Below are positions 1,568-6,944 of a stretch of 39,768 nt of DNA, piece by piece. How positions within the stretch are numbered: the stretch's first letter is position 1; each line of letters begins with the position of its first letter. A program made the position numbers and the translations under genes. The DNA is taken from the NCBI GenBank assembly GCA_903826575.1, contig CAIKEU010000004.1, positions 1-39,768 of the forward strand. The letters run 5' to 3'. The stretch is from an uncultured bacterium. GTDB lineage: Bacteria > Actinomycetota > Actinomycetes > S36-B12 > CAIYMF01. Below the pieces are notes generated by a model. The model saw only the letters and a list, made by a program, of their open reading frames with translations. It was not told where the DNA came from and searched no databases.

Positions 1568-4432
1568 CTAGCTGCAGCCACTCGTTGAGCCACACCCTTC
1601 GCAGACATAGCATGAGCCAGCTGGACGCATCTTGATTCCACACGTCATACACAGTGGTGCGTCAGCGGTCTTACCCGTGATGGCCTCGAGCAGCTCAGCT
1701 GATGAGTGTGCCTGAGCTGGGGCAAGTGTTGAACCCATAGGTGCGTCCTCAGCAGTCACGGAACTTTCGACTGCAGCGGACTGGGCGAGGGTTTCTAACT
1801 GCTCTTCGACGGCTTCAGCGATAACCGACGTTGGTGCCGTGTTGTATGAACCTGAAACCTGCTCAGCACGCTCCTCGGCGGTGAAAATACCAAGTGCTGA
1901 ACGCTTTTCGTAGGGCAGGTAATCCAACGCCAGTCGACGGAAGATGTAGTCCATGATCGACTGCGCCATACGAACATCGGCGTCGTCGGTGAGGCCCGCA
2001 GGCTCGAATCGCATGTTGACGAACTTCGACGCGAACGCCTCGAGCGGGACGCCGTACTGCAATGCGATCGAGATGGCGATGGAGAAAGCATCCATCACAC
2101 CGGCAAGCGTAGAACCCTGCTTACCGAGCTTGAGGAAGACTTCACCAAGACCGTCATCTGGGTATGAGCCGGCGGTCATGTATCCCTCGGCACCACCCAC
2201 GGAGAACGAAATCGTCTGCGACGGACGAACCTTGGGAAGGCGCTTACGTACGGGGCGGTACTCAACTACGGTGGCCGCTGCTGCCTCAACCGGAGCATCC
2301 GCCTTGGCTGCCTTACCGTCAGACAGTGGCTGACCAACCTTGCAGTTATCGCGGTAGATCGCCAGTGCCTTGATGCCCATCTTCCACGACTGGAAGTAGA
2401 TCTCTTCGACCTCTTCGATGGTCGCATCCTCGGGCATGTTCACGGTCTTGGAGATCGCACCAGACAGGAACGGCTGGCACGCAGCCATCATGCGCACGTG
2501 ACCCATCGGCGTGATGGAGCGTGCACCCATTGCCGTATCGAAGATGGCATAGTGCTCGGTCTTCAGACCAGGCGCGTCGATGACGTGACCCTTATCTGAA
2601 ATGAACTCGACGATAGCCTCGACCGTCTCCTCTGCGTAGCCGAGCTTGCGTAGCGCCCGCGGAATCGTCTGGTTGACGATCTGCATCGAGCCGCCGCCCA
2701 CAAGCTTCTTGAACTTAACCAGTGAGAAGTCAGGCTCGATACCGGTCGTGTCACAGTCCATCATGAATCCGATGGTGCCGGTTGGGGCCAGAACCGAAGC
2801 TTGCGCGTTACGCCAACCGTTCTTAACACCAATCTTGTTGCCGTCTTCCCAAGCCTGGCGCGCGAGGCGAAGAACGTCCCCGTCAAGGCTCGTGACGGTG
2901 CGCACGGAATCAGTGGCTGCTGCATGCTTACGCATGACGCGCTGGTGGGCTTCGGCGTTCCGTGAGTAACCCTCGTATGGACCGACAACCCCAGCGAGCT
3001 CCGCCGAGCGCTTGTAGGCAGTGCCGGTCATCAGGCTGGTGATCGCACCGGCAAGTGCACGTCCACCATCTGAGTCGTAAGGCAGACCTGTCGCCATAAG
3101 AAGCGCTCCGAGGTTTGCATAACCAATGCCCAGCTGACGGTACTTACGTGTCGTATCGCCAATGGGCTCGGTTGGGAAGTCTGCGAAACAGATGGAGATA
3201 TCCATCGCCGTGATGATGAATTCAACGGCCTTGGCGAACTTAACGGCGTCGAAGGTGTCGTCTTCTTTGAGGAACTTCAGCAGGTTGAGGCTGGCGAGGT
3301 TACATGAGGAGTTGTCTAGGGACATGTACTCAGAGCATGGGTTCGACGCAGTGATTCGGCCCGTCTCTGGGTTGGTATGCCAGTCGTTGATGGTGTCGTC
3401 GTATTGGATACCGGGATCGGCGCACTCCCACGCGGCCTTACAGATCTTCTCGAACAAGGTCTTAGCATCGACTGTCTCGATGACCTCGCCCGTTGCGCGG
3501 GCGCGCAAGCCGAAGTCGCGGCCTTCTTCAACGGCGCGCATGAACTCATCGCTCACACGCACGGAATTGTTCGCGTTCTGGTACTGAACGCTGATGATGT
3601 CCTTGCCGCCAAGGTCCATGTCGAATCCGGCATCACGCAGAACGCGGATCTTTCGCTCTTCGGCCGCCTTAGTCTCAACGAACTCTTCGATATCGGGGTG
3701 ATCAACGTCGAGAACGACCATCTTCGCCGCACGGCGGGTAGCGCCACCAGACTTGATGGTTCCAGCTGACGCATCGGCACCACGCATGAATGACACCGGA
3801 CCACTGGCCGTGCCACCCGATGACAAGAGTTCCTTCGACGAACGAATGCGACTGAGGTTAAGACCCGCACCGGATCCACCCTTGAAGATCAGCCCTTCTT
3901 CGCGGTACCAGTTCAAGATCGCATCCATCGTGTCGTCGACCGCAAGGATGAAGCAGGCCGAAACCTGCTGCGGACTCGTGGTGCCGACATTGAACCAGAC
4001 TGGGGAGTTGAACGAGAAGATCTGGTTGAGGAGCATCCAGGTGAGCTCATGCTCAAAGATTTCTGCATCCTGTTCAGTCAGGAAGTAACCGAAGTCCTTA
4101 CCGGCCTTCGCGTAGGTAAGCACGACGCGGTCAATAAGTTGGCGAAGGCTACGCTCACGGACGTCCGAACCAAGGGCCCCACGGAAGTACTTCGTCGTCA
4201 CGATCGTGGACGCGTTAACGGACCAAAAGTCCGGATACTCAACACCGCGCTGTTCGAAGACGGTCTCCCCTGTCTTCCAGTTGGTCTGCACCACGTCGCG
4301 ATGCTCCCAATTCACCTCGTCATACGGGTGAACGCCCGGCGTGGTGTAGATGCGCTCCATCGTCAGCCCAGCAACTTCTGGACGTGCCTTCTTGGCTGCT
4401 GTGCTGCGTGCGCTTGCGGCTGTCTCGGTCAT
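1568..4432 (-). CDS. nrdJ: Vitamin B12-dependent (class II) ribonucleotide reductase
   Basis: Predicted 954-residue cytoplasmic adenosylcobalamin-dependent ribonucleotide reductase, which reduces ribonucleotides to deoxyribonucleotides without needing oxygen. The catalytic set is visible: a redox cysteine in SACFILAVDD (about Cys160), the thiyl-radical cysteine in NPCSEYMSLDN (about Cys366, with flanking Asn and Glu), and the partner redox cysteine in SSCNLASLNL (about Cys377). The C-terminus ends in a cysteine-rich zinc-ribbon-like tail (CMTCGIKM, YVCEGCGS) typical of the long actinobacterial NrdJ. The ATG at 4432 is preferred over the frame start at 4483 because AAGGAG lies 10 nt upstream. 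The gene follows nrdR after 99 bp and is likely repressed with it by NrdR. I saw no B12 riboswitch in the 99-bp gap. Confidence 0.97.
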   Translation of the reverse strand: MTETAASARSTAAKKARPEVAGLTMERIYTTPGVHPYDEVNWEHRDVVQTNWKTGETVFEQRGVEYPDFWSVNASTIVTTKYFRGALGSDVRERSLRQLIDRVVLTYAKAGKDFGYFLTEQDAEIFEHELTWMLLNQIFSFNSPVWFNVGTTSPQQVSACFILAVDDTMDAILNWYREEGLIFKGGSGAGLNLSRIRSSKELLSSGGTASGPVSFMRGADASAGTIKSGGATRRAAKMVVLDVDHPDIEEFVETKAAEERKIRVLRDAGFDMDLGGKDIISVQYQNANNSVRVSDEFMRAVEEGRDFGLRARATGEVIETVDAKTLFEKICKAAWECADPGIQYDDTINDWHTNPETGRITASNPCSEYMSLDNSSCNLASLNLLKFLKEDDTFDAVKFAKAVEFIITAMDISICFADFPTEPIGDTTRKYRQLGIGYANLGALLMATGLPYDSDGGRALAGAITSLMTGTAYKRSAELAGVVGPYEGYSRNAEAHQRVMRKHAAATDSVRTVTSLDGDVLRLARQAWEDGNKIGVKNGWRNAQASVLAPTGTIGFMMDCDTTGIEPDFSLVKFKKLVGGGSMQIVNQTIPRALRKLGYAEETVEAIVEFISDKGHVIDAPGLKTEHYAIFDTAMGARSITPMGHVRMMAACQPFLSGAISKTVNMPEDATIEEVEEIYFQSWKMGIKALAIYRDNCKVGQPLSDGKAAKADAPVEAAAATVVEYRPVRKRLPKVRPSQTISFSVGGAEGYMTAGSYPDDGLGEVFLKLGKQGSTLAGVMDAFSIAISIALQYGVPLEAFASKFVNMRFEPAGLTDDADVRMAQSIMDYIFRRLALDYLPYEKRSALGIFTAEERAEQVSGSYNTAPTSVIAEAVEEQLETLAQSAAVESSVTAEDAPMGSTLAPAQAHSSAELLEAITGKTADAPLCMTCGIKMRPAGSCYVCEGCGSTSGCS

Positions 4433-4531: not shown

Positions 4532-5017
4532 TTACTGCGAATTCGTGTCAGTGGACGTTCGGTTGTTGAACTCGCGCTCAGCCCGCAGGAGGGCGATTTC
4601 GGACTCGAAATCTTCAAGATCGGTGAAAGCTCGGTATACCGACGCAAATCGCAGGTAGGCGATCTCATCGAGAGACCTCAAAGGCCCCAGGATTGCCATA
4701 CCCACCTCGTGGCTCGCCATTTCAGCCGAGCCGGTGGCGCGGACCGCTTCCTCCACGTCCTGCGCGAGTAGCGCGAGGTCATCATCACTGACAGGCCGCC
4801 CTTGGCACGCCTTACGAACCCCGGAAATGACCTTCGACCGACTAAACGCTTCGGTGGCTCCGGAACGCTTCACGACCGTCAGCGTCACGGTTTCCGATGT
4901 GGTGAATCGCTTTCCACACTCGGGACATTGACGTCGACGGCGGATCGCGGTGCCATCCTCGGCTGCTCTGGAGTCGACCACGCGAGAATCGCTGTGCCGG
5001 CAGTAAGGACAGTGCAT
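4532..5017 (-). CDS. nrdR: Transcriptional repressor NrdR
   Basis: Predicted 161-residue zinc-ribbon and ATP-cone repressor that senses ATP/dATP and controls ribonucleotide reductase genes. The zinc ribbon is [17 protein letters not shown] with [14 protein letters not shown] (CxxC and CxxC, residues 1-37). The ATP-cone follows, starting [16 protein letters not shown], and the C-terminal [18 protein letters not shown] is the usual NrdR ending. The ATG at 5017 is chosen because AAGGAG sits just before it and because NrdR proteins normally begin MxCPxC. It is the first gene of the nrdR-nrdJ unit. Two palindromes upstream are probable autoregulatory sites. Confidence 0.97.
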
Positions 5018-5128
5018 CAAGTGGCTCCTTCCCGAGTTATGGCGTCCGATATAGCCCAATTCCTACTCAGCAATCCGATCAACTGTGGATGAACCTGTTG
5101 ATGACGTGGGGAGAACCTTGGGATCCCG

Positions 5129-5177
5129 AACCACAATCTGTGGATTACTTACACCCATGTAACTACTAGATGTAGGG
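5129..5177 (-). promoter_or_regulatory. Pair of NrdR-box-like palindromes before nrdR-nrdJ
   Basis: Two imperfect palindromes lie upstream of nrdR: CCACAATCTGTGG at 5131-5143 and CTACTAGATGTAG at 5163-5175. Their centres are 32 bp apart, three helical turns. NrdR is known to bind tandem 16-bp boxes separated by a whole number of turns, so spacing, symmetry and position all fit. The sequence match to the published consensus is partial. A possible promoter (TTGCCA, 17 nt, TACGGT on the minus strand) lies just upstream near 5186-5214. Confidence 0.6.
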
Positions 5178-5295
5178 GAACCGTAGACGCCTGAGCCCTA
5201 CTTGGCAAGATATACGCGTAATGTCGGCGTGTCGGCTTCATTCACGCAGGTCAACGACGCACACCGGACGTAGCCGAGCAGAGGTCGCGGTGCGA

Positions 5296-5706
5296 CTAAG
5301 CGGCAGGGATGACCAATCGCTGGCCTGGATAAACCGTTGCGGCGGCGTCACCGGCAAGGCCGTTAAGGTCGGCGATTCGAGCGATCGTCTCGCGTGGATC
5401 ATCGTTTGGGGCGATGCGCTCAGCCAAGCCCCACATTGTCTGACCTGGTTGAACAATGACGGTCGACGTCGTTACAGATGCGTGCGCCGAACTCGCCTGA
5501 CTTGCACTGATGTGGCCAAAAATCGCCACTCCGACGGTGACCAGCAGCGCCATCACGATGATGAGTGTGCGAGCTAGTCGGCGACCACGGGTGGTCAGAC
5601 GAACGCCGGTTGAGCCAGGGGCCTGGTTCGAGCGCGACACCTGCGGCTGGCGCGGGTTCAGTGCAACTCGTGGCGACACTGTGACCGTACTCATGGCCAT
5701 AGACAT
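5296..5706 (-). CDS. LysM-domain membrane-anchored protein
   Basis: Predicted 136-residue cell-wall-associated protein. A basic N-terminal region ends in RRLARTLIIVMALLVTVGVA, a membrane anchor or uncleaved signal at about residues 45-65. A short Ser/Ala linker is followed by one LysM peptidoglycan-binding domain (VIVQPGQTMWGLAERI to YPGQRLVIP, residues 83-134). The ATG at 5706 has GAGGAG upstream. A small LysM protein between nrdR and lexA, transcribed away from lexA, is a conserved actinomycete arrangement. Its promoter lies in the 11-bp repeat region, so control may be shared with lexA. The exact cell-wall role is unknown. Confidence 0.9.
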   Translation of the reverse strand: MSMAMSTVTVSPRVALNPRQPQVSRSNQAPGSTGVRLTTRGRRLARTLIIVMALLVTVGVAIFGHISASQASSAHASVTTSTVIVQPGQTMWGLAERIAPNDDPRETIARIADLNGLAGDAAATVYPGQRLVIPAA

Positions 5707-5743
5707 GGGACCAACTCCTCATTCGACGCTCTAACTCAGACGA

Positions 5744-5830
5744 CGTACTCATTGCCTACCCACTGCGAAGTCACTGCGTACTCACTGCGAAGTCACTGCG
5801 TACTCACTGCGAAGTCACTGCAAACGACTG
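5744..5830. repeat. 11-bp tandem repeat array upstream of the LysM gene
   Basis: Seven consecutive 11-bp units of the form CGWASTCACTG (plus strand) run from 5744 to 5820, followed by a degenerate 10-bp unit. The central five alternate cgaagtcactg and cgtactcactg, making a near-perfect 22-bp super-repeat. The first two units (cgtactcattg, cctacccactg) are diverged. An 11-bp period places each unit on nearly the same helix face. The array starts 38 bp before the LysM start codon and ends 40 bp before the first LexA-like box. Confidence 0.9.
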
Positions 5831-5842
5831 CGAACTAACTTC

Positions 5843-5860
5843 AAAAGTGAACCCACTTTT
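5843..5860. repeat. 7-bp inverted repeat between the array and the LexA boxes
   Basis: AAAAGTG and CACTTTT form a perfect inverted repeat with a 4-base spacer (AACC). It sits between the 11-bp array and the first LexA-like box. It could be an operator or a small hairpin; nothing further identifies it. Confidence 0.55.
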
Positions 5861-5869
5861 CGGATCGAA

Positions 5870-6012
5870 CCGAACGTGTGTTCGATCGAACGTGTATCCG
5901 ATTTCTATCAGGTTCGACGCGCCGTGTCTAGCATTAACGAACACATGTTTGAAACACGTGTCCGAAACCGCTACCTTGGTGCTCGGCCCTCACGAATGGA
6001 ACGCATGTTCGC
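5870..6012. promoter_or_regulatory. Cluster of LexA (SOS) boxes upstream of lexA
   Basis: The actinobacterial SOS box is TCGAACNNNNGTTCGA. Matches here are: 5870-5885 ccgaacgtgtgttcga (1 mismatch), 5886-5901 tcgaacgtgtatccga (2), 5937-5952 acgaacacatgtttga (2), 5950-5965 tgaaacacgtgtccga (3, overlapping the previous), and 5997-6012 tggaacgcatgttcgc (2). The first two abut. Such sites before lexA are expected for autorepression and may also control the divergent LysM gene. The box with three mismatches is doubtful. No obvious gene lies between 5707 and 6158. Confidence 0.8.
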
Positions 6013-6158
6013 TTTCGAGGTGTTCACATCGTCGGTTTCACTCTCGATGTGCACAGATATGAGTCTGCTCGAGGGGTCTGACAGTCACGGTGAATGCCGT
6101 GCGTCGAGATCGATATACGCACTGTGGCGGGAGCTGCCACGAAAAACGAAGGAGCACT

Positions 6159-6944
6159 ATGTCCAGCGATGACATGTCCAGCGATGACAACACGAGCCCC
6201 GCGGACGCCGACGAGGTAGTCGACAACGCCCCTCGCCGTAAGGCTGGCCGGCCCAAGGTCGTCGAGATACCGATCCCCGAGGGTCTGCCTGACGCTGATG
6301 GGCTCACCGTGCGTCAACGCATCATCTTGGACATGATCCGCACTGCTGTGGAAAGCCGCGGCTATCCTCCATCGATGCGTGAGATTGGCGAGGCTGTTGG
6401 ACTGACCTCACCCAGCAGCGTGGCTCACCAGCTCGCAGCCTTGGAGAAGAAGGGCTACATCCGTCGCGATCCGCGCCTACCGCGCGCCATGGAAGTCGTA
6501 CTGCCAGGCGAGTCGTCCGTCATTGGTGAGGACGCACTTGACGCGACCGGCTCCGGAGATGAAAGGCCAACAGCAGCCTATGTTCCTGTCATTGGTCGCA
6601 TTGCAGCCGGCGGCCCCATCCTTGCCGAGCAGTCCATTGAGGAGGTCTTTCCGCTCCCCCGTTCCATCGTTGGCGATGGCGAATTGTTCTTGCTCAAGGT
6701 CGTTGGCGAATCCATGATCGACGCGGCGATCTGCGATGGTGACTGGGTCGTTGTCCGCAGTCAGCCTGATGCGGTCAACGGCGATATCGTCGCGGCCATG
6801 CTCGACGACGAGGCCACCGTCAAGACGTACCAGCGCAAGGATGGTCACGTGCGCCTGCTCCCAGCGAACGTCAATTACTCACCGATCGATGGGGATCACG
6901 CTCGAATCGTCGGCAAGGTCGTAGCGGTTTTGCGCAAGCTTTAG
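6159..6944 (+). CDS. lexA: SOS repressor LexA
   Basis: Predicted 261-residue repressor of DNA-damage genes that cleaves itself when bound to RecA filaments. A winged-helix DNA-binding domain ([18 protein letters not shown] and [20 protein letters not shown]) is followed by a linker and an S24 peptidase domain. The Ala-Gly cleavage site is in GRIAAGGP, the catalytic Ser in [13 protein letters not shown], and the catalytic Lys in EATVKTYQR. The ATG at 6159 is chosen because GAAGGAG precedes it; a longer frame from 6090 lacks support. The first five codons are duplicated exactly (MSSDD twice), giving a second in-frame ATG at 6174. An acidic N-terminal extension precedes the DNA-binding domain. 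Multiple LexA-like boxes lie upstream. Confidence 0.98.

Follow-up and report, generated by a model that had tools for sequence, protein, structure and literature searches.

An 11-bp tandem array between a LysM gene and lexA is probably a species-specific minisatellite in the predicted LysM leader

The window, which is the whole stretch of 39,768 nucleotides that was analysed, is contig C4 of a 3.01-Mb draft genome in 106 contigs from an uncultured actinobacterium. A tandem repeat array sits in this window between a small LysM gene and lexA. Further to the left lie nrdR and a gene for a class II ribonucleotide reductase, and a gene for a helicase of the DEAD type follows on the right. The features of the region are as follows.

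5296 to 5706, minus strand: small LysM gene (136 aa), a YneA-like candidate SOS cell-division suppressor (Pfam LysM, NCBIfam YneA)
5707 to 5895, minus strand: 5' leader predicted for the LysM transcript, array included (from the position of the putative -10)
5744 to 5840, no strand: whole degenerate array (Tandem Repeats Finder rows and unit table)
5761 to 5821: homogeneous core of five perfect 11-bp units, A-B-A-B-A, and the start of a sixth (sequence, Tandem Repeats Finder and unit table)
5871 to 5884, no strand: LexA-box-like palindrome CGAACGTGTGTTCG (genus comparison and box pattern)
5887 to 5900, no strand: second, weaker box-like copy CGAACGTGTATCCG (sequence and genus comparison)
5902 to 5907, minus strand: putative -10 element for the LysM gene, TAGAAA (genus conservation)
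5925 to 5930, minus strand: putative -35 element for the LysM gene, TAGACA, separated by 17 bp from the -10 (conserved to a lesser degree)
6159 to 6944, plus strand: lexA, divergent from the LysM gene (Pfam LexA_DNA_bind and Peptidase_S24)

The LysM protein contains a C-terminal LysM domain (Pfam, 35 bits against a cut-off of 20.9) that is preceded by a hydrophobic stretch recognized by eye. YneA is its sole NCBIfam match at E values up to 0.001, with a score of 39.2 bits, which remains under the curated cut-off of the model (60 bits). B. subtilis YneA, C. glutamicum DivS and mycobacterial ChiZ (Rv2719c) are described in the available text of PMC3989709 and PMC13396833 as DNA-damage-induced negative regulators of division, and DivS is reported there, in a review, to share no significant homology with YneA and to have a similar organization with lexA close by. 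The window resembles the yneA and divS loci in that lexA lies near a gene for a small candidate membrane LysM protein, with LexA-box-like sites between the two genes; Rv2719c/ChiZ is a relative of these suppressors in function. No repeat array is mentioned for the yneA, divS and ChiZ systems in the same portions of these sources, whereas one is present in the window. Division suppressors with lexA nearby are known from YneA and DivS, and the lexA/LysM gene pair itself is therefore ordinary.

Nine loci of the genus that contain both genes, drawn from 11 genus genomes, were compared with respect to the intervening region. Two genomes (G003 and G005) fall outside this comparison, having no LysM match and, in the case of G003, no LexA match either; the loci L002 and L088 apparently belong to one genome, of which L088 alone is used. 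The palindrome at 5871-5884 is presumably a LexA box, as judged from the actinobacterial consensus. The box pattern is matched at this position in seven of the nine loci, and the other two, L084 and L086, carry a CGTACG variant. At the site of the putative -10, the 7-mer TA[GC][AG][AG]AT is found in all nine loci, at a distance of 16 bp from the box in eight of them and 14 bp in one. A -35-like TAGACA or TCGACA occurs 17 bp upstream of the -10 in five loci, and the remaining four display TTGCTT (two loci), TGGACC and TGCCCC at that site.

A consensus promoter scan over 5000-6300 reported no promoter; the scan requires a T at position six, and the putative -10 has none. Since this generic scan is empty, we infer the LysM promoter and leader from conservation only. 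If the putative promoter is right, the LysM transcript would start near 5895 and the array would lie downstream of the operator, in the leader. The array is located between the conserved block and the LysM start codon and is therefore probably part of the 5' leader of the LysM gene, whose regulation would be exerted by LexA at the conserved boxes. The original prediction had placed the array immediately upstream of the LysM gene; the position is correct, but on comparative grounds the array falls inside the predicted transcribed leader and not in the promoter.

Several observations concern the lexA side of the region. A short element, GAGTCTGCTCGAGGGGTCTGACAG, is present at 6061-6084 on the plus strand in the lexA leader and recurs, by eye, in the nine genus loci, with only its right half in L088; a pattern search for it matched eight loci and missed the variant of the window. 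The upstream regions of lexA were collected from 80 loci, of which 75 had the 500 bp available (L002 from the genus, the others from outside it). The GGGTCYGACA core of the element occurs in three of these 75 regions and in none of the 75 on the other strand, and L002, which is among the three, apparently represents the same genome as L088. Additionally, the lexA start is perfectly duplicated over 15 bp at 6159-6189 (ATGTCCAGCGATGAC twice), which yields two in-frame start codons, and the second copy is diverged in the nearest relative found, G010, as judged by eye.

The array is built from perfect units at 5761, 5772, 5783, 5794 and 5805, which are alternately CACTGCGAAGT and CACTGCGTACT and which read GCAGTGACTTC and GCAGTGAGTAC on the minus strand, i.e., the strand of the LysM mRNA. 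The units at 5739, 5750 and 5816 match at 8 of 11 positions at best, and an ACTGC remnant follows the last unit after a step of 10 bp in the sequence; the centre of the array is uniform, and decay is seen towards both edges. Tandem Repeats Finder calls the region 5749-5821 with a period of 22 (3.3 copies, 94% match, score 125), the region 5761-5821 with a period of 11 (5.5 copies) and a degenerate array at 5744-5840. None of 300 simulations of the whole window with a first-order Markov model reached the score of 125; the best score per window had a mean of 43.6 and a maximum of 69. The head-to-tail copies hence exceed chance and the tandem 11-bp repeat is real, as is the 22-bp super-repeat that was noted earlier, given the A/B alternation and the period of 22. 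Of the seven near-identical units originally described, five are perfect and the remaining two are decayed. The proposal that the repeated motif lies on one helix face is weak and holds only approximately, because, with 10.5 bp per turn, a spacing of 11 bp drifts by 17 degrees per unit and has accumulated 103 degrees after six steps.

Several structural and coding explanations of the array were tried and rejected. A coding repeat was dismissed because a period of 11 is not divisible by 3, the mRNA strand offers only short frames and the region contains no called gene. With respect to RNA structure, the fold z-scores are 0.13 for the leader and +1.57 for the array relative to shuffled sequences; the leader thus has no folding advantage over its shuffles, and the array folds less well. 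The only Rfam match in 5200-6300 at E values up to 1 is c-di-GMP-II at 6021-6055, which lies outside the array and scores 20.5 bits against a gathering threshold of 53.5. DNA bending is not indicated either: in a rough wedge model, 50.6% of the other stretches of the window are more curved. The suggestion of a bent or flexible promoter element is not borne out, as curvature is at the window average and the array lies downstream of the predicted start. Plasmid-type iterons were considered from the layout of the repeats and set aside; the neighbourhood consists of lexA, the LysM gene, nrdR, the class II ribonucleotide reductase gene and the helicase gene.

On the mRNA strand of the core, GTGA recurs every 11 nt and creates overlapping four-codon frames, GTG-NNN-NNN-NNN-TGA, that encode VTSQ and VSTQ and that could pass ribosomes along the leader by termination and re-start. 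However, such frames arise from any 11-bp array that contains ATGA, GTGA or TTGA, which applies to 8.7% of random 11-mers on one strand; no convincing ribosome-binding sequence is seen in their contexts, and the frames are not conserved. It is therefore extremely improbable that the array serves in this way.

Comparison with relatives reveals that the array is restricted to one lineage. The nearest relative found by LexA is G010 (93% identity), in which the 90 bp from 5867 on are identical to the window at 89 of 90 positions, while the array is absent at the orthologous LysM leader. The LysM start and the LexA box are separated by 164 bp in the window genome and by 26 bp in G010, and the distances over the nine genus loci are 164, 26, 143, 145, 95, 112, 28, 151 and 72 bp. 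In G009 the LysM leader is also long (143 bp), and thus G010 may instead have lost sequence. A triplet of the unit is found in one of the 11 genus genomes when as many as 3 mismatches are allowed and in one of the 166 genomes of the order with up to 2 mismatches, in both cases only at the locus of the window, and the eight other genus loci, which were read directly, lack the array at this site. Across species, neither phase nor position of the array is therefore conserved, as it is absent in the relatives; such a lack of conservation, there among strains, had been named in advance as speaking against a functional element.

All five matches of the unit dimer with 0-1 mismatches in the genome are located inside the array, and with up to 3 mismatches there are 18 matches, six of them in the array, versus 14 for a reversed control. 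A mobile source was sought in viral contigs, in which the unit triplet has no exact match. In a plasmid collection, every match among the best 20 of 37 records starts at query base 1298 or later, i.e., inside lexA. The earlier remark that no described element with this unit is known agrees with the literature search, in which neither such an element nor any array between lexA and a LysM gene appears among the open-access titles and abstract openings that were listed.

Arrays with other units also occur in the intergenic DNA of the same genome. In a background sample of 560,465 bp (18.6% of the window genome, window included), the 72.8 kb of intergenic sequence contain 11 arrays with a score of 50 or more (15.1 per 100 kb) versus 19 in the 488 kb of genic sequence (3.9 per 100 kb), an excess that depends on genes called by a home-made caller. 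Two of the 11 are the studied array and the double LexA box, which leaves nine others. The samples from relatives comprise 309,762 bp for G010, 155,292 for G009, 120,000 for G002, 80,000 for G004, 14,989 for G007 and 13,604 for G001. The 32.8 kb of intergenic DNA sampled in G009 contain 18 arrays of unrelated units, with periods of 4, 11, 12, 13, 14, 15, 17, 18, 23, 26 and 33 bp, and the array-rich loci of this genome include L143, L142 and L195; G010 has five in 28.6 kb, its own double LexA box counted. The intergenic excess is uneven, as none of 24 arrays in G002 and 3 of 13 in G004 are intergenic.

Unrelated 11-bp arrays occur in G009 on both sides of lexA, one in the lexA leader (8.3 copies) and one downstream (4.1 copies), the latter in a stretch without alignment to the window genome. 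In the window genome itself, a 19-bp array of 4.1 copies at L126:3641-3718 extends from the stop-codon region of a gene called at 2269-3657 almost to the start of the next gene at 3720. The unit is single-copy at the same gene end in G010, which is consistent with tandem amplification since the split from G010. Arrays with a score of 60 or more are present in 10 of the 75 lexA upstream regions, and repeats near lexA are therefore not confined to the genus. The variety of unrelated arrays indicates that units arise and turn over here, a class into which the studied array fits.

Some further repeats were observed in these genomes. A 35-bp unit is repeated 7.1 times with 91% match between two plus-strand genes at L165:2351-2598 of the window genome. 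At L160:7282-7405, a perfect TCCACT repeat of approximately 20.7 copies runs up to the contig end and is perhaps the cause of the contig break. In the L084 locus of G009, 18-bp repeats are present where the LysM gene encodes the N-terminal part of its product, and the lexA leader includes a 4-bp tract similar to CAGC/CAGT.

The genome is a draft in 106 contigs, and the repeat number could in principle be a product of short-read assembly. However, arrays of the same kind with other units are found in other genomes of the genus, and the total length of the array, approximately 97 bp, is below common read lengths. An assembly artefact is thus highly unlikely.

A serious functional alternative is a cooperative platform for a response regulator of the OmpR/PhoB family, similar to PhoP or MtrA, that would bind the array as TCACTGC-NNNN units. 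Regulator molecules oligomerized head to tail over as many as seven sites, shortly past the LysM transcription start, would form a road-block and would thereby link the SOS cell-division suppressor to a two-component signal. Binding of PhoP/PhoB-type regulators to 11-bp direct repeats is a real precedent. According to the available text of PMC4832192, M. tuberculosis PhoP binds as a tandem dimer to TCACAGC-N4-TCACAGC, in which the 4-bp spacing is strict, and its binding is tighter with three or four consecutive motifs than with two. For MtrA, the available text of PMC2945938 quotes a 'GTCACAgcg' motif from another study, and its own 7-bp motifs are CACGCCG or CACGAGG. The array repeats TCACTGC five times in exact form, every 11 bp from 5771 to 5815, and has two further 7-mers with one change at 5749 and 5760; both differences between units A and B fall in the N4 spacer. 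Like the M. tuberculosis PhoP box as given in PMC4832192, it therefore consists of a 7-bp motif and a strict 4-bp spacer in an 11-bp direct repeat, and six of the seven bases agree; unlike that box, it has T for A at motif position 5 and is located downstream of the predicted start.

Candidate regulators are encoded in the window genome, which has seven Trans_reg_C proteins, including MtrA (390.7 bits against an NCBIfam cut-off of 300) and one protein for which M. tuberculosis PhoP is the best match of known structure (E 1.6e-75). Residue numbers from PMC4832192 were placed by us on this PhoP-like protein, whose recognition helix keeps four of the six named base-facing residues (N212, E215, Y217 and Y220) and carries V213I and S216Q. 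From the contacts given in the available text of PMC4832192, S216 would be near the thymine opposite the A of the differing motif position. The A-to-T change in the motif may match S216Q, a correspondence that is suggestive and was drawn after the fact.

However, paired sites of this kind show no enrichment in the remainder of the genome. Outside the array, four sites in the genome lie within 1 mismatch of TCACWGC-N4-TCACWGC versus six for a reversed control. With the array masked, the sampled intergenic DNA has two paired sites when 2 mismatches are tolerated and 17 when 3 are; the averages over 200 permuted motifs are 1.35 and 15.3, and 38.5% of the permuted motifs reach each of these counts. 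The 3.2-kb locus of the phoP-like gene has no paired site within 3 mismatches, and neither further genomic sites nor an autoregulatory site are thus found; in this the window genome, with no regulon of array-like sites, differs from the M. tuberculosis PhoP system. The array is also absent from the relatives searched (11 genus and 166 order genomes), and the probability that a random 11-bp array agrees with the PhoP motif at six of seven positions is 3.2%, or higher if other motifs are counted. A cooperative binding platform, as originally suggested, has the PhoP/PhoB precedent in its favour but is not supported, with the triplet missing from G010 and the other 165 genomes of the order and the paired motif unenriched.

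We consider such an operator very unlikely. A more specific version, in which slippage amplified one chance half-site into a lineage-specific PhoP- or MtrA-type multimer site of up to seven tandem sites that blocks the LysM gene past its LexA-controlled promoter, is slightly less probable again. The likeness to the PhoP box survives weakly as a lead.

Other bacteria are known to tune expression by means of repeats, and the array could be a slippage-prone tuner selected to vary, the number of units setting the leader length and the LysM output in a manner similar to phase variation. The homogeneous centre and the position in the predicted leader agree with this role. However, the array is short and its edges are imperfect, the other arrays of the genome occur in many contexts, and the RNA of the array is weakly structured, which together make selection for copy-number change improbable.

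Most probably, the array is a species-specific minisatellite located in a LysM 5' leader that is free of constraint, and the best reading is that it is recent and was made by slippage. Bacterial intergenic minisatellites and VNTR loci consist of short head-to-tail units with a homogeneous centre and decayed edges and are species-specific. The array shares all of these characteristics and is intergenic; it differs from typical members of the class by its location, the predicted leader of a gene that is an SOS candidate. The homogeneous middle and the decayed edges count for the minisatellite reading, whereas the lack of an 11-bp period in most other intergenic arrays and the resemblance to a known regulator box count against it. 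Among the options that were originally offered, slippage-prone DNA fits the sequence data best.

In this minisatellite reading, an 11-bp tandem duplication would have come first and 22-bp steps would have followed, both by replication slippage inside the unconstrained untranslated leader of the SOS-controlled LysM gene. The LysM transcript would start near 5895 and pass through the array, the main effect of which would be to lengthen the leader by approximately 100 nt of weakly structured spacer; translation or mRNA stability would be altered mildly at most.

If the PhoP-type reading were true, the array would represent a cooperative operator being born by slippage. If the minisatellite reading holds, the array is a warning against reading function into helically phased repeats, because a conserved control block adjoins it while the array itself is missing in relatives. 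The lexA/LysM leaders of this genus would then appear to be regions of fast change and repeat gain, and their repeats could serve as strain markers.
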